Shown here one piece after another: positions 36,021-47,738 of a stretch of 64,000 bases of DNA. Position numbers and translations under genes: made by a program. A model generated the notes under the pieces. It had not been told where the DNA came from. It saw only the letters and a program-made list of their open reading frames with translations, and did not search any database. The DNA lies in NCBI GenBank assembly GCA_022820665.1, contig JAJEFB010000045.1, positions 94,392-158,391 on the forward strand. The letters run 5' to 3'. Numbering within the stretch: position 1 is the first letter of the stretch; every line of letters starts with the position of its first letter. The DNA is from Anaerolineae bacterium (GTDB lineage Bacteria > Chloroflexota > Anaerolineae > Aggregatilineales > Phototrophicaceae).

Positions 36021-37622
36021 CTAGTCACTCATCATCAGGGACGGATGAGCCTTCTTTTCGTCCGCCACCGACAAGCCGTATTCGACGCTATCGACCAGCG
36101 CCAGCCAACTGGCGCAAATGATGTCGGTGCCCGCGCCAACGGTACTCCAGCGCTCGCTGCCATTGTAGGAATCAATCAAAACCCGCGTCATGGCGCCGGT
36201 TGCGTTCTCGCTGTCCAGTATTCGTACTTTGTAATCTACCAACTGTATGTCTCGCAGCGCTGGATACTTCGGCAACAAAGCCTTTCGCAGCGCCAGGTCC
36301 AGCGCGTTCACGGGTCCGTTGCCTTCGGCAGCCGTATGCACGACATCGCCATCCACATCGAGTTTCACCATCGCTTCCGCCAATTGCCCGCGACCGCGCC
36401 GATCCTCAACAATGACTGTGAAGTCGATCAAGTTGAAGAGCGGCAGGTAGTTCGGGCGGGCTCGCCGCAGCCGCACCGCGACCGATGCCTCGGCGCCTTC
36501 AAATACGAAACCGGCGTTCTCCAACTGCTTGATGTCATTGAGGACCTGTACCGCCTCGTCCTTGGACACATCAAGGCCGAGTTCTTCCGCCTTGCTAAGC
36601 AGATTCCCGCGACCTGATAGATCCGACACCAAGACCCGAGTTTCGTTGCCGACCTTCGTTGGTTCGATATGCTGATAGCTGTCCACGTTGCGCCGCATGG
36701 CCGCCACGTGGATGCCGCCTTTATGCGCGAAGGCGCTCTTGCCCACGTAAGGCAAATGTGTGTCCGGCGCCAAATTGGCGATCTCAGCCACCGCCCGCGA
36801 CAGATGCGTCAGCGTAGCCAGATTGCCGTCTTCCGCCAAACAAGGAATGCCCATCTTGAGAATCAGATCCGGTATGATGCTGCAGAGATTGGCGTTGCCG
36901 CAGCGTTCGCCATAGCCATTGATCGTGCCTTGTACATGGATCGCGCCCGCGCGTACCGCCGCCAATGAATTGGCGACCGCAAGTTCGCTGTCATTGTGCG
37001 TATGGATGCCGAAATCCATTTCCGGAAACAACTCGCGCGCCTTGTACATGAATTCCGCCACTTCCCAAGGCGTCGAGCCGCCGTTGGTATCGCAGAGCAC
37101 AACGACATCGGCGCCGCCATCGCAGGCCGCGGCCAAGGTATCGAATCCGTATTCCATGTCCAGCTTGGCGCCGTCAAAGAAATGTTCAGCATCATAAATG
37201 ACTTCTTTGCCCAGACTCTTGAGATAGGCGAGACTGTCGGCGATCATGTTCAGGTTTTCCTCTGCGGTAGTCTGCAAGACATCGGTAACGTGTAACATGG
37301 ACGTTTTGCCAACCACCGTCACCACAGGCGTGTTTGCATCCACCAGAGCGCGAATATTCGCGTCTTCATCGGGCCTCACGCCTTTGCGTCGCGTGGAACC
37401 GAAGGCGGTGATCAGAGAATGCCGCAGGTCCAACTCGCGAACTTGTTCGAAGTAAGCGACATCTTTGGGGTTGGAACCGGGCCAACCTCCTTCGATATAC
37501 TTCACGCCTAATTCGTCGAGCAGCCTCGTGATATGAAGTTTGTCCGCCACCGAAAAGGAAATGCCTTCCCGCTGGCTGCCATCGCGCAAGGTCGTATCGT
37601 AGATTGTCACACTCTGCTTCAA
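36021..37622 (-). CDS. cimA: Citramalate synthase
   Basis: YDTTLRDGSQREGISFSVADKLHITRLLDELGVKYIEGGWPGSNPKD; AEHFFDGAK; HTHNDSELAVANSLAAVRAGA; TINGYGERCGNANL. Confidence 0.95.
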   Translation of the reverse strand: MKQSVTIYDTTLRDGSQREGISFSVADKLHITRLLDELGVKYIEGGWPGSNPKDVAYFEQVRELDLRHSLITAFGSTRRKGVRPDEDANIRALVDANTPVVTVVGKTSMLHVTDVLQTTAEENLNMIADSLAYLKSLGKEVIYDAEHFFDGAKLDMEYGFDTLAAACDGGADVVVLCDTNGGSTPWEVAEFMYKARELFPEMDFGIHTHNDSELAVANSLAAVRAGAIHVQGTINGYGERCGNANLCSIIPDLILKMGIPCLAEDGNLATLTHLSRAVAEIANLAPDTHLPYVGKSAFAHKGGIHVAAMRRNVDSYQHIEPTKVGNETRVLVSDLSGRGNLLSKAEELGLDVSKDEAVQVLNDIKQLENAGFVFEGAEASVAVRLRRARPNYLPLFNLIDFTVIVEDRRGRGQLAEAMVKLDVDGDVVHTAAEGNGPVNALDLALRKALLPKYPALRDIQLVDYKVRILDSENATGAMTRVLIDSYNGSERWSTVGAGTDIICASWLALVDSVEYGLSVADEKKAHPSLMMSD

Positions 37623-37665
37623 TTCAAACCTCCCCTACCCGCAGGACCTCCCGTCACAAATTCGA

Positions 37666-38277
37666 TCAGGCAGTTGTCTCAACTCGCTGCGGATTGCGCG
37701 CTTCAAAACCGCGCACTTCATCATCCAGGTTGAGCAAGTATCCCAGTTGATCCACCCCATTCAGTAGGCAGTACTTGGAGAATCCATCCAGGGGAAATTC
37801 GATCTGACGGCCATCCGGCAGTGTCAAGCGCTGCGCTTCTACATCAACGCTGACCGATGTCGTGGGATCTTCATCAGCCAGGCTGAATAACTGCCGTTGT
37901 GTTTCTTCATCAACAATGATCGGGAGCAAGCCATTCTTGAGCGCGTTGTTCCGGAAGATATCAGCGAACTCGGTGCTGATGACTGCCTGGAAACCTGCGC
38001 CGATCAGCGCCCAGGGCGCGTGCTCGCGGGAGCTGCCGCAGCCAAAGTTGTTGCCGGCTATCAAGACTGACGCGCCGGCATAGGCTGGATTGTTCAAAAT
38101 GAAGTCTGGATTTGGCGTCGTGCCGTCTTCCAGATAGCGCCAGTCGCAGAAAGCCGCTTTGCCCAAGCCATCCTTGTCCGTCACTTTGAGGAAGCGCGCG
38201 GGAATGATCTGGTCTGTATCAATGTCGTTGACCGGGATGGCGACGACAGTCCCTTGGATATGTTTCAGTTTTTCCAT
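37666..38277 (-). CDS. leuD: 3-isopropylmalate dehydratase small subunit
   Basis: GTVVAIPVNDIDTDQIIPARFLK, GNNFGCGSSREHAPWAL. Confidence 0.97.
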   Translation of the reverse strand: MEKLKHIQGTVVAIPVNDIDTDQIIPARFLKVTDKDGLGKAAFCDWRYLEDGTTPNPDFILNNPAYAGASVLIAGNNFGCGSSREHAPWALIGAGFQAVISTEFADIFRNNALKNGLLPIIVDEETQRQLFSLADEDPTTSVSVDVEAQRLTLPDGRQIEFPLDGFSKYCLLNGVDQLGYLLNLDDEVRGFEARNPQRVETTA

Positions 38278-38302
38278 TCTTTTCTCCCTGGCGGCTCTTT
38301 GA

Positions 38303-39733
38303 CTAAAGCATGGCGCGCGGATCGCTGACGACGCCGGCAACGGCGGAAGCGGCCGCGGTCAAAGGACTAGCCAGGAAGGTTCGCCCGCCTTTGCCCTGAC
38401 GCCCTTCGAAATTGCGGTTGCTGGTCGAAACCGCGTATTGACCAGGCTCCAGTTGATCGCCGTTCATCGCGATGCACATCGAACAGCCCGCTTCCCGCCA
38501 TTCCGCGCCTGCCGAGCGGAACACCTCGTCGAGCCCTTCGGATTCAGCCTGTCTCTTGACCTGCTGAGAGCCCGGCACAACCATCATCCGAACGCTTTCA
38601 GCCACTTGGCGTCCTTCAATGAATTTGGCAGCCTGCCGCAAATCGCTTATCCGCGAATTCGTACAGCTGCCGATGAAGACCACGTCGATCGGCTTTCCCA
38701 GCAACTGCTGTCCAGGTTGCAGGTCCATGTAGGCCAGCGCTTTGTCGAGAGCAGTTTTCTTGTTGTAGTCTCTTTCGTCGTCGGGGGCGGGAACTGCGGC
38801 GGTGATAGGCATACCCATGCCGGGATTGGTTCCGTAAGTAATCATCGGGATCAATTCCTCAGCCCGCAGCGTGATTTCCTGGTCGTATGCCGCGCCATCG
38901 TCAGTCGGCAGTTGGCGCCATTTGGCGAGCGCGGCATCCCATTCAGCGCCCGACGGCGCATGTTGGCGCCCGCTGATGTACTCAAAAGTGCTATCGTCGG
39001 GGGCGACCATGCCAGCGCGAGCGCCACCCTCAATCGACATATTGCAAACGGTCATCCGACCCTCCATGCCCAGATCCCGAATGGCTTCTCCGCGGTATTC
39101 AAAGACATGTCCCGTTCCCCCTCCGATGCCAATGCGGGCGATTATCGCCAGGATAATGTCCTTAGCCGTGACCCCCTCTTCCAGCTTGCCTTCGACGTTG
39201 ACAGCCATGGTCTTGGGCTTGTTCTGCAACAGCGTCTGCGTAGCCAGGACATGACCGACCTCACTGGTGCCGATGCCAAAAGCCAATGCCCCGAAGGCGC
39301 CATGCGTGCTGGTGTGGCTGTCGCCGCAGACAATGGTCATGCCAGGTTGCGTTAAGCCTTTTTCCGGACCAATGACGTGGACAATGCCTTGGTGTTCGTC
39401 TCCCAAGGCGTACATGGGAATGCCGAAATCGTCACAATTCCGCGTGAAGGTATCAAGTTGCTTTGCCGCCATCGCATCCGCAACCGGTATGATGCCCAAC
39501 TCGTTTCGGGGCGTGGTCGGTGTGCTGTGATCCATGGTGCCAATTGTTAGATCGGGACGTCTTACCTTGAGTCCGCGTTCGCGCAGCATCGAAAAGGCTT
39601 GCGGAGACGTCACTTCGTGAACCAGGTGCAAGTCAATATAGAGCACAGCGGGGCTGTCTTCGCTCTCATCTCTAACTGTATGCGCATCCCATACCTTCTC
39701 GAAAAGGGTGCGGGGCTTCCCGTTATTTGTCAT
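38303..39733 (-). CDS. leuC: 3-isopropylmalate dehydratase large subunit
   Basis: [55 protein letters not shown]. Confidence 0.97.
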
Positions 39734-39780
39734 CTTATGTTCCTCTTGCAAATCATAGGCTGAATACGGTAATTGGCGCT

Positions 39781-41394
39781 TTAGGAAGTGGATGTCAATC
39801 CCACCGTCGCCGCTTCGCCTTCCGGCGCAACGTCCCCGATGCCCAGGCTGGATATCATTCGGTTCAAAGCCGCGACATAGGCTTTAACGCTGGAAACGAT
39901 AATATCGCTATCAGCGCCATAGCCGCCAAAGGTCCGATTGCTGTTTTCCGGCGAGATGCGCACGGTCACTTCTCCAAGCGCGTCGATGCCTTCGGTCACG
40001 CTGTGCACGTTGAATTCCAGTAAGACATTAGGCGCCTGTATGATCTCGTCGATGGCGCGGTAAGACGCGTCCACAGGTCCGGTGCCAACCGACGCCACGA
40101 CGAATTCCTCGCCATCCTGATTGACCATCTTGACCGTCGCTGTCGGCAGACCCATCGTGCCGCAAGCGACCTGGATATCGACCAGGCGAAAATGATCTTC
40201 CGGTTTTTGGGCGGCTTCATCCGCGACCAGGGCTTCCAGATCGGCATCCGTAACGGTTTTTTTGACGTCTGCCAGATCTTTGAAGCGCTTAAAGATCTCG
40301 ACAAGGTCCTCGCCTTCAATCTCGTATCCCAGCTCGCGCAGGCGCACGCGCAGCGCGTGCCTGCCGCTCAGCTTGCCTAATACCAGCTTGCTCTGGGTCA
40401 AGCCGACATCTTCCGGCATCATGATCTCGAAGGTTTCGGCGTTTTTGAGCACGCCGTCTTGATGGATTCCGGATTCATGCGCGAAGGCGTTGGCGCCGAC
40501 GATTGCCTTGTTGGCTTGCACCGGCATACCCATATAGTTGCGCACCATGCGGCTCGTCTTCATAATCTGAGTCGAGTCGATATTGGTTCGCAAGCCGTAA
40601 TAAGCCTTGCGCGTCTGGATAGACATCACAACTTCTTCCAGGCTGGTATTGCCCGCGCGCTCGCCAATCCCGTTGATAGTCACCTCGACCTGGCGCACGC
40701 CTTTCTTCAAGCCAGCCAAAGTATTGGCTGTCGCCAGCCCCAAATCGTTATGGCAATGCACAGACCAGATCACCCCGCTGCCGGGTCCGGCGCCGGGCGT
40801 CTCGTTGATCAGCATCTCCAGCGTTTCCGCCCATTCTGTGGGCATCACATAGCCGACTGTATCGGGGATGTTCAAGGTGGTGGCGCCGGCTTCGACAGCG
40901 ACGGCGCAGGCGCGAATCAAGTATTCCGTGTCGGTCCGCCCAGCGTCCATCGGACTGAATTCGACATCATCGCAGAGGCTTTTGGCTAGGGTGACCGCCT
41001 CGCGAATGCGTTGCAAGCCCTCGTCTTTGTCAATGCGCAGCATCGCCAAATGGCTCGGTGATGTGCCAAGGAAGGTATGAATACGCGGTTTGGCAGCCTC
41101 GCGCACGCCTTCCCAGGCGGCCAAAATATCGCCTTCAAGCGCCCGCGACAGCCCCGCAATCGTCGGCCCATCGGGCGTGCCAACTTCGCGGGCAATCCGC
41201 TGCACAGCTTTCAGATCGTCGGGAGACGCGGCGGGGAATCCGGCTTCTATCACATCGACGCCGAGGCGCGACAATTGCCGGGCAATTTCCAGCTTTTCGG
41301 CGCTGGACAAGGTCGCGCCCGGGCTTTGCTCCCCGTCGCGCAGCGTCGTGTCAAAGACGATGACAGTGTTTTCGTCGTAAGTTCGCTTTACCAT
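39781..41394 (-). CDS. leuA: 2-isopropylmalate synthase
   Basis: [58 protein letters not shown]-terminal LeuA dimer domain. Confidence 0.97.
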
Positions 41395-41479
41395 TGAGAG
41401 GTGTTCCTTTCGTCATTCGAATCCGGTCAAGTACATACATCAATCGTCGTCTAAGATCAACGAGACCATCTTCTGACAT
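41351..41479 (-). CDS. Putative 42-aa small ORF overlapping the leuA start out of frame
   Basis: Strong SD aaaGGAGGTgttgac-ATG; [42 protein letters not shown]; stop lies 44 nt inside leuA. Confidence 0.5.
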
Positions 41480-41534
41480 GTCAACACCTCCTTTCCCTCC
41501 GTATGTCTGTGAAACAACGGCTTTTGCTATCCCG

Positions 41535-42545
41535 CTAGTCGCTTTGCTTGATATTCTTGGCATCGAGGAAGGGCATCATCTGGCGCAGATCCGCCCCGAC
41601 TTTCTCGATTAGCAGATCATGTTCGCGTTGGCGGCGGGCATTGAAATTGGGACGGCCCTGGCGGTTTTCATCAATCCAGTCACGCGCGAATTCGCCGTTT
41701 TGGATCCGCTGCAAGACCCCCGCCATTTCTTCCTTGACCGTATCTTCAAATTGGTCGCCGATGACATATCCGCCATGTTCCGCCGTATTGCTGACGCTGT
41801 ACCACATATAGCTCAGACCGCCTTCATAGAGCAGATCCACAATTAGCTTCAATTCGTGCAGGCATTCAAAATACGCCACCTCCGGCTGATAACCGGCTTT
41901 GACCAGGGTCTCGAAGCTGGCGCGGATCAAGGCGGTTACGCCACCGCACAAGACAACTTGCTCGCCAAAAAGATCTGTCTCGGTTTCTTCTTTGAAAGTC
42001 GTCTCGATAACGCCCGCGCGCGTACAGCCAATGGCTTTCGCGTATGCCAGCGCCAGCGCCGTCGCATTGCCGCTGGCATCCTGTTCAATCGCGACCAGCC
42101 CGGGCGTCCCCGCGCCCTCGGTGAATACTTCCCTGACGCGATGTCCCGGCGCCTTGGGCGCGACCATCGCCACGTCAACGCTTTCGGGGGGAACGATCTC
42201 CTTGAAGTGTATATTGAAGCCGTGCGCGAACATCAACATGGCGCCGTCTTTCAAATTGGGCGCGATATGTTCGTCGTACACAGCCGCCTGCCTGGTGTCG
42301 GGAATCAAGATCATGACCACATCGGCGCGTTTTGCCGCTTCCGCAACCGTGAAAACTTGCAGCCCGTCAGCCTCGGCTTTTGCTTTGCTCTGGCTGCCCG
42401 CGTGCAGGCCGACAATCACATCCTGGCCGTTGTCCCGCGCGTTCAAGGCATGCGCGTGCCCTTGGCTGCCGTATCCGATCACCGCGATGGTCTTGCCATC
42501 AAGCAGGTTCAGATCCGCGTCCTGATCGTAGTAGAGTTTCGCCAT
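41535..42545 (-). CDS. ilvC: Ketol-acid reductoisomerase
   Basis: [49 protein letters not shown]. Confidence 0.98.
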
Positions 42546-42622
42546 CGATGGATATTCTCCCTTTTCAAAAGATCGCTATGCAAGATGCCGCGGCTCCGAG
42601 CGAACAGCCGCAAATAAACATG

Positions 42623-43207
42623 TCAAATCACATTGCCATTGCCGCCGGCCGAGAGTTCATCCTGAATCTTGGCAAGATCGCGGCGAGTGAAATTGGTGTC
42701 GTGAATCCGGGTGCCGCGCCCCATCGACACCACGCCCGTCCGAATCATTTCGACGATGCCGGTAGGCCGTACTTCATCAATGAACTCTTCCAGTATTTCT
42801 TCCGTGCCTACCATCTCAATGATGGCGACCTTGGGACCGATATCGACGATGCGCGCCGGGTAACGGTCGCAGATCTCGGTTATGGTATTGCGAGAGTTGG
42901 CATCATCGTTACGCACTTTGATCAGCGCCAGGTCGCGCTCGACATGCGGTTCGTTGTCCAGTACGCGCACGTCGATGACATTCACGAGCTTCTGCAAGTT
43001 GGTCGCGATCTTCCTGGCGTATTCGGGACCCGCGACGACGCGAATGGTCATGCGCGAGATATGCGGCTTGTGCGTGCGCCCGACAGTCAAGCTGTCTATA
43101 TTGAAGGCCCGCCGCCGGAAGAGACTGGCAATCCGGTTCAAGACGCCAGGTTCATTCTCCACCAGAGCGACAACGGTTACCTTGTTGATGTCTACTTGGC
43201 TGGTCAT
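42623..43207 (-). CDS. ilvN: Acetolactate synthase small subunit
   Basis: VVALVENEPGVLNRIASLFRRRAFNIDSLTVGRT ACT domain. Confidence 0.97.
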   Translation of the reverse strand: MTSQVDINKVTVVALVENEPGVLNRIASLFRRRAFNIDSLTVGRTHKPHISRMTIRVVAGPEYARKIATNLQKLVNVIDVRVLDNEPHVERDLALIKVRNDDANSRNTITEICDRYPARIVDIGPKVAIIEMVGTEEILEEFIDEVRPTGIVEMIRTGVVSMGRGTRIHDTNFTRRDLAKIQDELSAGGNGNVI

Positions 43208-44910
43208 AATCCCTCCCCTGGCTTGGGACGGCGTTTCATGTCATGCAAGTCCGCGCCGGCCGGTACCATCGGATAAACCATCTCTTCTTTTTCAACTACA
43301 AATTCAATCAACGTGGGACCATCAATATCGCGGGCGAACTGAACGGCATCTGCAATTTCTTCTCGTCGTGTCACCCGGCGATTGGGGATTCTATAAGCAT
43401 CCGCCAGCTTGCAAAAGTCCGGATTAAACAGTGGAGTCGCTTCGTAGCGTTTTTCATAGAATAATTCTTGCCACTGCCGCACCATGCCCAGAAAGAAGTT
43501 GTTGATGATCGCGATATTGACATTGACGTTTTCCTGCGCGGCTGTTGCCATCTCACAGAGCGTCATCTGGAAACCGCCGTCGCCGACGATCGCCCAGACC
43601 TCTTCGTCAGGCTTCCCAAACTTGGCGCCGATCGCCGCCGGGAAGCCGAAGCCCATCGTCCCAAGCCCGCCGCTGGTCAGCAAAGTCGCTGGTCGTTGAT
43701 GCGGATAATACTGCGCTTCCAGCATCTGGTGCTGCCCTACATCGGTCACAGTGATGGCTTCGCCCTGGGTCTGCTTCCAAATATCGTTGATGACTTGCGC
43801 CGTCAAAAGCCGGTCCGGCGTTTCGTAGTTGAGAATGTCGCGTTCACTGGAGTCTTCCAGCCAGTCGCGGATTCTTCCGATCCACTCCGGATGAGACTTC
43901 TGCTTGAGTTTGGGCAGCATCTGTGTGAGTACGGTCTTCAAGTCGCCCGCGATGCCGACGTCAGCTTTCACATTCTTGTTGATTTCCGAGCGATCGATGT
44001 CGATATGGATTTTGCGCGCGTTCAAGGCATAGGTCTTGAGGTTGCCGGTAACGCGATCATCGAAACGCATACCCAGGGCGATGAGCAGATCGGCTTCCTG
44101 AATGGCCAGGTTCGCGGATGCTTCGCCGTGCATGCCCATCATGCCGATCACCAGCGGGTGATCTTCCGGCATTCCCCCCTTGCCCAGCAAGGTCAGCGTC
44201 ACCGGAATCTGCGCCCGCTCGGACAGTTCCCGCAGTTCGCGCATGGCGCCGGACATCATGATGCCGTGCCCGGCAAGGATAATCGGGCGCTCCGCCTCTT
44301 CGATCAGGCGCAAGGCAGCGCTGACCTCGGATTCGTCCGCGGACGAGGGCGGATGATAGCCCGGCAGCACGATCTCGCCTTCCGGATACTCGAATTCGGT
44401 CTGAGCCAACTGCACATCTTTGGGGACGTCTACCAGCACCGGTCCCGGTCTTCCCGTACGCGCGATATGAAAGGCTTCTTTCATTGTGTAGGCGAGGTCC
44501 CGTACATCGGTAACCAGATAATTGTGCTTGGTAATCGGCAGCGTCACACCTGTGACATCCGTCTCCTGAAAGGCGTCGGATCCAATGGCTGGAATTGGCA
44601 CCTGGCCCGTTATCGCCAAAATCGGAGAAGAGTCCATCATTGCCGTTGCCAAGCCCGTAACCAGGTTGGTTGCGCCTGGTCCGCTAGTGGCGATGCACAC
44701 GCCGACCTCGCCGGTAGCGCGCGCATAACCGTCCGCCATATGCGATGCGCCCTGCTCGTGCCGCACCAAGACATGATGGAGTCGGTCCTCATACTTGGTC
44801 ATGGCGTCGTAGGTTGGCAATATCGCGCCGCCAGGATAGCCGAACATGACGTGAACGCCTTCTTGCAGCAGGCATTCCATGATGATTTCCGAACCTGTAA
44901 GTTTCATCAT
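43204..44910 (-). CDS. ilvB: Acetolactate synthase large subunit
   Basis: TGSEIIMECLLQEGVHVMFGYPGGAILPTYDAM, EQGASHMADGYARATGEVGVCIATSGPGATNLVTGLATAMMDS, GDGGFQMTLCEMATA. Confidence 0.98.
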   Translation of the reverse strand: MMKLTGSEIIMECLLQEGVHVMFGYPGGAILPTYDAMTKYEDRLHHVLVRHEQGASHMADGYARATGEVGVCIATSGPGATNLVTGLATAMMDSSPILAITGQVPIPAIGSDAFQETDVTGVTLPITKHNYLVTDVRDLAYTMKEAFHIARTGRPGPVLVDVPKDVQLAQTEFEYPEGEIVLPGYHPPSSADESEVSAALRLIEEAERPIILAGHGIMMSGAMRELRELSERAQIPVTLTLLGKGGMPEDHPLVIGMMGMHGEASANLAIQEADLLIALGMRFDDRVTGNLKTYALNARKIHIDIDRSEINKNVKADVGIAGDLKTVLTQMLPKLKQKSHPEWIGRIRDWLEDSSERDILNYETPDRLLTAQVINDIWKQTQGEAITVTDVGQHQMLEAQYYPHQRPATLLTSGGLGTMGFGFPAAIGAKFGKPDEEVWAIVGDGGFQMTLCEMATAAQENVNVNIAIINNFFLGMVRQWQELFYEKRYEATPLFNPDFCKLADAYRIPNRRVTRREEIADAVQFARDIDGPTLIEFVVEKEEMVYPMVPAGADLHDMKRRPKPGEGL

Positions 44911-44952
44911 CGCCTCCTTAACGCGCTTGACTCGCCCAAAACAGCGGTCGCA

Positions 44953-45873
44953 TCATTCCTTGACGAATGTCAGCCAGTTATATTTGTCCGGCATCTCCCC
45001 GGATGTAATAGCGAAAAACTCATTCTGAACCGCTTCTGTGACCGGACCTCGCCTGCCACAGCCAATCTGGATTCTGTCAACCGACTTCACCGGCGTAACC
45101 TCGGCAGCCGTCCCCGTGAAGAATATCTCGTCAGCCATATAGAGCATCTCGCGGGCTACCGGTTGGAAGCGAATCTCAACGCCCTGCGATTGCAGAATGC
45201 GCAAAGCGCTGTCGCGCGTAATGCCCATCAATATCGACGACCAGGCGCCGGGCGTGTAAACGACGCCATTCAAGATGACGAAGATATTCTCTCCGGCGCC
45301 CTCGCTGACGTAGCCGTTGACGTCCAGGGCGATCCCTTCCTCGAAGCCATTATCATGCGCTTCCATGCTGACAAATTGGCTGTTGACATAGTTGCCGCCG
45401 GCTTTGACCAGCGCCATATGCGTATCCGGCGCCATGCGGCGGAATGAACTGATCTGTACGTCAACCCCTTGTTCAATGGCTTCCGCCCCCAAATATCGGC
45501 CCATCTCCACGGTGAAGATGATCGTTTCCGTCGCGGTGCGGCCCCGCCCTTCCAAACCAAGCGAACCGCTGCCGCGGAAGATTATGGGACGTATATAGCA
45601 AGACGCGTGACCATTCTTGCGTATTGTTTCCACAATGGCTCTGTCCAGGGAATCGGGATCGTACTCGTGCTCGATGCGCATGACGCGAGCGCCTTGCATC
45701 AGCCGCTCGGTGTGCTCGCGCAGGCGAAAGACTGCCGGACCCTTGGGCGTGTCATAAGCGCGGATGCCTTCAAAGACGCTGGAACCATAATGCAAGGCAT
45801 GAGCGCTAACATGTACTGTCGCATCATCCCATTTTACAAATTCGCCGTTGCGCCAAACCCATTCAGCAGTCAT
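44953..45873 (-). CDS. ilvE: Branched-chain amino acid aminotransferase
   Basis: HALHYGSSVFEGIRAYDTPKGPAVFRLREHTERL, YIRPIIFRG, FFTGTAAEVTPVKSVD. Confidence 0.97.
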   Translation of the reverse strand: MTAEWVWRNGEFVKWDDATVHVSAHALHYGSSVFEGIRAYDTPKGPAVFRLREHTERLMQGARVMRIEHEYDPDSLDRAIVETIRKNGHASCYIRPIIFRGSGSLGLEGRGRTATETIIFTVEMGRYLGAEAIEQGVDVQISSFRRMAPDTHMALVKAGGNYVNSQFVSMEAHDNGFEEGIALDVNGYVSEGAGENIFVILNGVVYTPGAWSSILMGITRDSALRILQSQGVEIRFQPVAREMLYMADEIFFTGTAAEVTPVKSVDRIQIGCGRRGPVTEAVQNEFFAITSGEMPDKYNWLTFVKE

Positions 45874-46080
45874 CTACTTTCCCCTTGGTAGCCATTAAAT
45901 GAAAACACGCCCGCCTCAGATCAACTCAGTTGACAGGAGAGGGGCGCGCTGCCACAAAACCATAGTTTCGGATTGCCGTAGCGACAATTCGCAAATCGCC
46001 GCGCATCGCTTGACCTTGTGTAGCGCCGCTTTCCTTGTCTCATGTCAGCCTGTGTCCGCTTGCCTTTCACCTTGTGAACT

Positions 46081-46107
46081 AAAAAGCCTCCCGTGGCTTG
46101 GGAGGCT
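46081..46107 (-). terminator. Rho-independent attenuator terminator in the ilv leader
   Basis: Minus strand AGCCTCCC-AAGCCAC-GGGAGGCT then TTTT; 8-bp perfect stem, located 40 nt after the leader stop and ~208 nt before ilvE. Confidence 0.85.
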
Positions 46108-46146
46108 GTTGTCTGCTGCTTGCTGTCGCGCTTCCTGCCCAAGCCC

Positions 46147-46224
46147 TTAAAGTCCACTGATAATCACGAGGACAATGACAAGAATGAGCAGGCTAAGTAC
46201 AGTGTGCGCGGAACTGCTATGCAT
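46147..46224 (-). CDS. ilv leader peptide, 25 aa: MHSSSAHTVLSLLILVIVLVIISGL
   Basis: ATG at 46224, TAA 46149-46147; 14 of 25 residues are Leu/Ile/Val (13 of residues 9-22); sits between a promoter and a terminator upstream of ilvE. Confidence 0.85.
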   Translation of the reverse strand: MHSSSAHTVLSLLILVIVLVIISGL

Positions 46225-46259
46225 TTCTTTCGCGGTCTCCCTAGCAAGGAATACGCGTT

Positions 46260-46288
46260 ACAATAACGAACTTTCTCGCATCTGTCAA
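46260..46288 (-). promoter_or_regulatory. Putative sigma70-type promoter of the ilv-leu cluster
   Basis: Minus strand TTGACA-N17-TATTGT. Confidence 0.75.
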
Positions 46289-46367
46289 GCAATTTGGCGG
46301 ATTGCCTCCCCTAAAGGACTAGGTGTTTCATAAACATTTACAGGGATACCCTGTGCATACTACCCAA

Positions 46368-47738
46368 CTAGCTCGTCAATCGCGTCTTTGCCAAGGCGAT
46401 CTGCTTTCTAACTTCATCGGGCGCGGTCCCTCCGTAGGTCTTGCGTTGCGCCACCGACTGGGCGAAATTAAATACCTCCGCGACATCATCGCCGAATTGC
46501 GGAGAAATGGCTTGCAAGCAGGGAAGCGGCAGAGCCGACATGTCCGCCTGGCTTTCGCTTGCGAGGCGCACAACTTCGCCGACGAGTTGATGCGCCTGGC
46601 GGAAAGGCACGCCCTTGCGCGCCAGGTAATCGGCCAAATCTGTCGCGAGAAGTTCCTCTGTCAAGGATGCCATCATTTCTTCGGGGTTCACCTGGAGGCT
46701 GGCGACAATCGCTGTCATCACCGGCAACAACTGATGCATGGTGTCGCAAGAATCAAATAGCGATTCTTTGTCCTCTTGCAAGTCCTTGTTGTAGCCGCTG
46801 GGCAATCCCTTTAGGGTAGTCAAGAAGCCAGCCAGATTGCCCACGAGACGACCTGCCTTGCCGCGCATCAACTCCATGGGATCGGCATTGCGCTTTTGCG
46901 GCATCAAACTGGAACCGGTGCTATAGCGATCATCCAGGGTGATGAAGCCAAAGGAAGGATTGGAGTAAACGAGTATGTCCTCGGCCAATCGACTCAGGTG
47001 ACTCGCGCACAAAGCAATCGCGTATAACAGATCAGCGACGAAATCCCTGTCGCTGACGGCGTCCAGGCTATTCTGGCTCGCCGCGTCAAAACCCAGGTCA
47101 GCGGCGATTTGCTGGCGATCCAGACAAAACGGATTGCCGGCCAGCGCCCCCGACCCCAGCGGGCAAATCGACATGCGCTGCCGGGCTGATCCCAAGCGAT
47201 CCTGGTCACGCTCCAGCATCCAGAAAAAGCTCATCAACCAGTGAGCGACCGTGATCGGCTGCGCTGGCTGCAAATGCGTGTAACCCGGCATCAGTGTCTC
47301 TGTCTGGCTTTCGCTTGTCTCGACGATCGCCGCTTGCAGGTCCCGCAATTCGCTTGCCAGGCGTTCGGCTGCGCGCATGCTCCACAGCCGAAAATCCGTC
47401 GCCACCTGATCATTGCGGCTGCGACCCGTGTGCAGCTTGCCGCCGACATCGCCAATGATTTCGATCAGACGTCGTTCGACGGCGGTATGCACATCTTCAT
47501 CGGCTTCCTGCAGCTCGAAGTCACCGGTCTCGAATTCCTGCAAGACTTCGCGCAATCCCGCAACGATCGCCCGCGCTTCGTCAAGCGTAATGACTTCGGC
47601 ATCCGCAAGCGCCAGAGCATAGACGATGCTGCCTTCAATGTCTTCGCGGTAAAAGCGAATGTCAAAGCCTATGCTGTCGTTGAGCGCCCGCAAGTCTTGA
47701 TCGCTTGGTTGGGAGAACCGTCCGCCCCAAAGGCTCAT
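46368..47738 (-). CDS. argH: Argininosuccinate lyase
   Basis: SLWGGRFSQPSDQDLRALNDSIGFD, GSSLMPQKRNADPMELMRGKAGRL. Confidence 0.97.
   Translation of the reverse strand: MSLWGGRFSQPSDQDLRALNDSIGFDIRFYREDIEGSIVYALALADAEVITLDEARAIVAGLREVLQEFETGDFELQEADEDVHTAVERRLIEIIGDVGGKLHTGRSRNDQVATDFRLWSMRAAERLASELRDLQAAIVETSESQTETLMPGYTHLQPAQPITVAHWLMSFFWMLERDQDRLGSARQRMSICPLGSGALAGNPFCLDRQQIAADLGFDAASQNSLDAVSDRDFVADLLYAIALCASHLSRLAEDILVYSNPSFGFITLDDRYSTGSSLMPQKRNADPMELMRGKAGRLVGNLAGFLTTLKGLPSGYNKDLQEDKESLFDSCDTMHQLLPVMTAIVASLQVNPEEMMASLTEELLATDLADYLARKGVPFRQAHQLVGEVVRLASESQADMSALPLPCLQAISPQFGDDVAEVFNFAQSVAQRKTYGGTAPDEVRKQIALAKTRLTS

Follow-up and report, generated by a model that had tools for sequence, protein, structure and literature searches.

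A putative ribosome-mediated attenuator of simplified architecture upstream of the ilv-leu cluster in Chloroflexota

Introduction

The enterobacterial ilvGMEDA, ilvBN, leuABCD and trp operons have leader attenuators, a model of which is treated in PMC1183508. Attenuation by leader peptides has been described in Proteobacteria, Actinobacteria and Firmicutes. A uORF rich in branched-chain amino acids (BCAA), with a terminator and an antiterminator before the ilv operon, was found at ilvBNC of Corynebacterium (the ilvB-II motif) and has been described as transcription attenuation (PMC10272879, PMC11857589). Actinobacterial ilvB leader candidates have been reported as well (PMC1262725). The ilvB-OMG and Leptospira ilvB motifs are rare RNA motifs before ilvB, for which BCAA-rich uORFs, described as also Thr-rich, have been proposed (PMC10272879). 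The his and hisS attenuators of Firmicutes, found by comparison, are examples of leader-peptide attenuation outside Proteobacteria and Actinobacteria (PMC2965389, PMC9413887). A survey of Rfam motifs in 24 bacterial groups, including Chloroflexi, led its authors to propose a possible origin of the amino-acid attenuators in gamma-proteobacteria (PMC3766115). Our full-text literature searches returned no description of leader-peptide attenuation in Chloroflexi, Chloroflexota or Chloroflexus; these searches did not cover the broad attenuation survey of Lopatovskaya et al. 2010 (PubMed 20198868), and a prior mention is possible.

Here we analyse a leader found in a 64 kb stretch of DNA (hereafter the window, meaning the whole stretch) from a 4.56 Mb draft genome of an uncultured member of the Anaerolineae (Chloroflexota). 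It has in common with the enterobacterial attenuators a short leader peptide rich in the end products, a mutually exclusive antiterminator and terminator, and biased control codons. Unlike them, it has no conserved 1:2 protector or pause stem, its segment 2 starts directly behind the leader end (in the family) or inside it (in other families), its terminator loop joins the antiterminator, and it shows no sequence similarity to them (no Rfam match). The Corynebacterium ilvB-II motif shares the general layout but belongs to a different phylum and differs in sequence (PMC10272879). C. glutamicum has a leaderless peptide of 15 residues and three hairpins with an anti-antiterminator, whereas the leaders described here are 22–29 residues long, have an ordinary 5′ UTR and can form either of two hairpins, both conserved. 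As to the ilvB-OMG and Leptospira ilvB motifs, no Rfam family matches the window or the related loci, and the Firmicutes attenuators, unlike the present one, are His-specific.

Results

Anatomy of the leader and of the downstream operon

All features lie on the minus strand. Our analysis showed a sigma-70-type promoter, TTGACA-N17-TATTGT, at 46288–46260, followed by a leader ORF of 25 codons, MHSSSAHTVLSLLILVIVLVIISGL, which starts with ATG at 46224 and ends with TAA at 46149–46147. Residues 9–22, the putative control-codon run, comprise 13 Ile, Leu or Val (ILV) residues and one Ser. Segment 2, the 5′ arm of the antiterminator (GGCTTGGGCAGG, 46145–46134), can be read as GGCTTGGG(C)AGG and is complementary, with one C bulged, to segment 3 (CCTCCCAAGCC, 46105–46095). 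Segment 3 is also the 5′ arm and loop of an intrinsic terminator, AGCCTCCC-aagccac-GGGAGGCT-TTTT, at 46107–46081. A first-pass annotation, made from the sequence alone, had proposed the promoter, the BCAA-rich ORF with its 13 ILV residues out of 14, the terminator and the alternative 2:3 complementarity with its bulged C. When checked against the sequence, each was found as described and all coordinates were correct.

Stretches with at least 12 ILV codons per 14 occur only four times in the six frames of the 64 kb, and these four overlap and all fall within the leader ORF. The Shine-Dalgarno signal of the leaders is weak (mean −4.1 versus −3.6 kcal/mol in shuffles). The minimum-energy fold of the whole leader is unremarkable (z −0.72), and we rejected this score as uninformative. 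Since the plain fold energy is not unusual, the case rests on comparison.

The first downstream gene, ilvE (44953–45873), scored above the cut-off of NCBIfam TIGR01122/NF005146. Reading of the translations identified ilvB (acetolactate synthase large subunit, 43204–44910), whose homologues lie 3′ of other attenuators, ilvN (acetolactate synthase small subunit, 42623–43207), ilvC (ketol-acid reductoisomerase, 41535–42545), leuA (2-isopropylmalate synthase, 39781–41394), and leuC and leuD (large and small subunits of isopropylmalate dehydratase, 38303–39751 and 37666–38340, both with approximate start codons). The last gene of the cluster is cimA, citramalate synthase (36021–37622; TIGR00977, E 2e-207). 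The genes from ilvE to cimA share one strand and are separated by short gaps, and no credible intrinsic terminator was found on the minus strand between these two genes. The cluster (36021–45873), ilvE-ilvBN-ilvC-leuA-leuCD-cimA, has no ilvD, whereas many related families have ilvD directly under the attenuator's lead. From terminator to ilvE, the leader of the window measures about 207 nt (46080–45874), versus about 25–40 nt in some relatives. The relatives whose ilvE is 84–95% identical are uncultured Chloroflexi/Anaerolineae MAGs.

Conservation in the family

We compared the DNA upstream of ilvE in 70 loci: 34 from genomes of the window's genus, counting its own genome, and 36 from genomes of other genera in the family. 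A leader ORF of 22–29 codons with an I/L/V run was found in 70/70 of these regions. Nearly all of the leaders are preceded by a TTGACA promoter, exact or near-exact, with the 17-nt spacer, typically 30–50 nt 5′ of the leader start; a promoter score of at least 10 was reached by 26% of orthologous leaders versus 2% of shuffles. The −35 element and the spacer of the window are thus kept in nearly all orthologues. A terminator hairpin was detected by script 3′ of the leader in 68 of the 70 loci. The leader ORF and the 2:3 and 3:4 stems are conserved in close relatives; a lack of such conservation was one of the two outcomes that the first-pass annotation had named as speaking against its proposal.

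Codon differences within the run between close relatives comprised 46 synonymous, 16 ILV-to-ILV and 13 other changes, where 23.5, 13.1 and 38.4 were expected. This excess of synonymous changes and I/L/V exchanges indicates that the codon content of the leader is under selection. As would be expected of an attenuator, the ORF is short, carries a run of codons for the amino acids of its operon and is constrained at the protein level.

The antiterminator/terminator switch

Segment 2 (GGCTTGGGnGG) pairs with segment 3, that is, with the 5′ arm and loop of the terminator. The first-pass annotation had named an alignment of orthologous ilvE upstream regions as a check on its stems, and the 2:3 helix was found to covary strongly. 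In a plain alignment of 66 family loci, 18 cells had changed on both sides, versus 3.5 in shuffles (0/500). When other families were added, the count was 59 versus 15.4 expected (0/500 shuffles), with compensatory changes in 8 of 10 pairs; this alignment (A3) was fitted to the model and leans towards structure, and the plain MAFFT alignment (A1) gave the same answer. A3 was used for counting because MAFFT misplaces the terminator loop in A2. Helix-slid controls failed the covariation test. Compensatory arm pairs include GGCTTGGG/CCCAAGCC, CGTTTGGG/CCCAAACG, CGGTTGGG/CCCAACCG, GGCGTTGGG/CCCAACGCC and GTTTAGGA/TCCTAAAC.

Folding before the 3′ arm of the terminator exists gave the antiterminator in 66/66 loci, and folding with the 9 nt after the stop masked gave the terminator, again in 66/66. 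With the full leader at equilibrium and segment 2 free, the antiterminator was predicted in 22 and the terminator in 44 of the 66 loci. Because equilibrium favours the terminator in these 44, readthrough would need kinetic, co-transcriptional capture of segment 3, and the near balance of the two full-leader states is, in these folding models, what a kinetic switch would need. A mutually exclusive antiterminator and T-tract terminator, as attenuators have, thus lies between the leader and the first gene.

The proposed 1:2 stem

The first-pass annotation had also proposed a segment 1, CCTGCTC (46192–46186), which pairs with GGGCAGG of segment 2. This pairing is present in the window but differs from relative to relative and is not conserved, and segment 1 has no support as a functional element. 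Its strength compared with permuted synonymous codons had a mean z of −0.26 (66 leaders), and compared with codons resampled from genome usage −0.34 (34 leaders), while the 2:3 helix had a mean z of −3.2. Being no better than these controls, the 1:2 stem was rejected as a conserved element. No conserved 1:2 stem or pause hairpin that would synchronise polymerase and ribosome was found in the family leaders, so the protector or pause hairpin of the enterobacterial four-segment (trp/ilv) type is not demonstrable here. We therefore describe the element as a two-hairpin attenuator. As for the likeness to enterobacterial ilv and trp attenuators that had been drawn, the leader peptide and the choice between 2:3 and 3:4 stand, but the 1:2 protector stem does not. 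By our reasoning, a two-hairpin leader should read through when it is not translated, unlike the classical four-segment type.

Geometry and codon choice

In 66 of the 70 family loci, the spacing between the end of the BCAA run and the TTGGG core of segment 2 is 13, 16 or 19 nt (in the window, 16 nt from the last run codon). In 63 of the 70, the stop codon has its first base 7 nt from the start of the core. Outside the family, run-to-core spacing is mostly 16–22 nt, and the position of the stop relative to the core ranges from −9 (before it) to +30 nt (behind it), which means that the leader ORF often extends into segment 2. Two family loci (L037 and L050) have an ORF that runs past the usual stop position, yet their spacing stays at 19 nt. 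Since the spacing is nearly constant while the stop moves, selection acts on how far the control codons lie from segment 2.

Counted from the first base of the A-site codon, the footprint of a bacterial ribosome reaches about 12 nt. Modelled with such a footprint, a ribosome stalled on the last Ile would leave segment 2 free, and one at the stop would cover most of it. The last run position is often a Leu codon, and a stall there would already cover segment 2. The geometry is of the kind that, in an attenuator, makes hairpin choice depend on where a ribosome stands along the control codons. The first-pass proposal fits the conserved family geometry, once the 1:2 stem is left out of it: a stall in the run would free segment 2, and translation as far as the stop would mask it. 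Outside the family, the stop often falls inside or beyond segment 2, so masking from the stop codon is just one variant of this logic.

Leu codons of the leaders are CTC or CTT in 109/126 cases (87%), versus 98/480 (20%) in ilvE of the same loci (p 2e-43). Leader Leu codons, in the window (46149–46204) and its orthologues, are almost only CTC/CTT, though the genes use CTG/TTG. Leaders of other genera have the Val codon GTA rather than GTG. Elf and Ehrenberg have treated why attenuators choose particular synonymous codons (PMC1183508), and a change of CUA to CUG in the Salmonella leu leader lowered its sensitivity (cited in PMC1183508). By analogy, the CTC/CTT bias is the same kind of signature as the choice of control codons in the enteric leu leader.

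Distribution in Chloroflexota and other amino acids

Our covariance models contain no leader sequence, and the model R1 was built from the downstream switch only. With R1, almost every family genome gave a single match, 5′ of ilvE. R2, with E limited to 0.01, matched 121/154 genomes of the order and 53/399 genomes sampled across the phylum, the weakest matches including false ones. Copies of the switch before ilvD or ilvB were found in at least ten other Chloroflexota families, and most of the inspected matches outside the family precede these two genes, with BCAA-run ORFs. The source genome gave just two other matches and neither was credible: one (E 0.1) is an ordinary terminator between cytochrome-like genes, and the other has an E of 4.7. 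Several weak matches elsewhere (L246, L249, L250, L263, L264 and G137:C375) were judged false, being of low complexity or without a leader run, and so were L277, L280, L282, L283 and L286.

One genome (G148) has four copies (L265–L268), before ilvD, leuS, cimA and serA, with the leader runs LIVLVLVSLLL (BCAA), YLLCASLLLA (Leu), IIIIAIPLII (Ile) and TTTTSSTT (Thr/Ser), respectively. Leaders with Tyr runs precede the same switch in two other genomes: YYYYYYF in G327 (L241, 1501–2838; leader KYYYYYYFGRIKVRLGESL), where DAHP synthase is the next gene, and YYYYYF in G555 (L260; leader NYYYYYFRRLKMRLGAVA), where the contig ends before the gene. G314 (L237) has a Met-rich leader, MSRESTPMMAMVNAVAMRHGGLMLGRTL, and the switch before metG, methionyl-tRNA synthetase; a search of 18 other family genomes gave no credible match, only one weak, low-complexity match (L264). 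The identities of the downstream genes pass NCBIfam cut-offs. The agreement between codon run and gene product is independent support, because it was not used in the search.

A switch-like element was also seen before a branched-chain-type ABC transporter substrate-binding protein in G317 and G496 (L242 and L243; leader of L242, MTTSFGYMVIIIIMWVLYYFYYGKAPVFGWDNNGKR). A model match in G398 (L240) precedes threonine synthase (thrC), and the ORF upstream of it has no clear Thr run.

Discussion

We are highly confident that this leader is a ribosome-mediated transcription attenuator which senses the charging of Leu, Ile and Val tRNAs and controls the ilvE-ilvBN-ilvC-leuA-leuCD-cimA operon. From the observed anatomy, conservation, 2:3 covariation, spacing, protein-level constraint and codon bias we infer how translation, stalling, termination and regulation would proceed in the cell. 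RNA polymerase would start from the promoter at 46288–46260, followed by a ribosome that translates the leader. Under a shortage of BCAA-tRNAs, this ribosome would stall in the 14-codon BCAA run, and segment 2, left free, would pair with segment 3 before the 3′ arm of the terminator is made, giving readthrough. When they are plentiful, the ribosome would reach the stop and cover segment 2, and segment 3 would form the terminator.

The leader might instead encode a sequence-specific arrest peptide, whose nascent hydrophobic chain stalls the ribosome on some signal that is not starvation. The C-terminal VLVIISGL is indeed well kept within the genus, but across the family and the phylum only the I/L/V composition is kept: these residues freely replace one another, and their order varies. 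The leaders that have Tyr, Thr/Ser or Met instead, with the same switch before other genes, also argue against arrest, and a peptide-only mechanism does not need the strong synonymous codon bias. We consider this reading very improbable.

Slightly less probable still is a small membrane protein as the product of the ORF, with the switch controlled otherwise, for example by an RNA-binding protein or a small molecule. Given its strong hydrophobicity, the I/L/V run could cross a membrane. However, it differs from membrane helices in having almost no Phe, Ala, Met or Gly, its distance to segment 2 varies by no more than a few nt, and other members swap the hydrophobic run for Tyr or Thr/Ser codons. 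For another controller, a search with 4227 Rfam models gave no match in the window at the gathering score and none at E up to 1 for 45900–46400, whether riboswitch, T-box or protein-binding leader, and no family match was found in 14 related loci. A known RNA family (Rfam amino-acid leader, T-box or ilvB-type) was likewise rejected, as no covariance model matched. Control at the level of translation, in which leader translation affects ilvE through reinitiation or start access and the hairpin does not function in termination, is just as improbable: the hairpin is close to ilvE in some relatives, but its T tract is conserved, and its distance to ilvE, about 207 nt in the window, is very variable elsewhere, so that neither reinitiation nor start-site masking fits.

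With transcription attenuation by the ribosome as the preferred reading, the sequence comparisons make it very likely that the element is a known kind of mechanism, real and conserved, new across the Chloroflexota lineage and of simplified architecture. The same attenuator is probably reused as a module for several amino acids, to judge from its leader runs and downstream genes. A broader proposal, for which we see the case as about evenly balanced, is that Chloroflexota carry an old modular platform. It would consist of one antiterminator/terminator cassette, with segment 2 close to CGnTTGGGnGG and segment 3 CCTCCCAA, with specificity set by a codon run that is swapped at a fixed upstream distance, with no protector stem and with a stop that is free to move. 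The runs would then be Ile for cimA, Leu for leuS, Thr/Ser for serA, Tyr for DAHP synthase, Met for metG and mixed BCAA for ilvD, ilvB and ilvE.

The attenuator offers a simpler, two-hairpin design for study, and its covariance model could help to annotate how amino-acid genes are regulated in a large number of uncultured genomes. A stalled ribosome apparently reports amino-acid shortage in a phylum for which the searched literature and Rfam hold no such device. A covarying, precisely spaced attenuator in several Chloroflexota families, apparently reused, would imply tight coupling of transcription and translation far from the model organisms.
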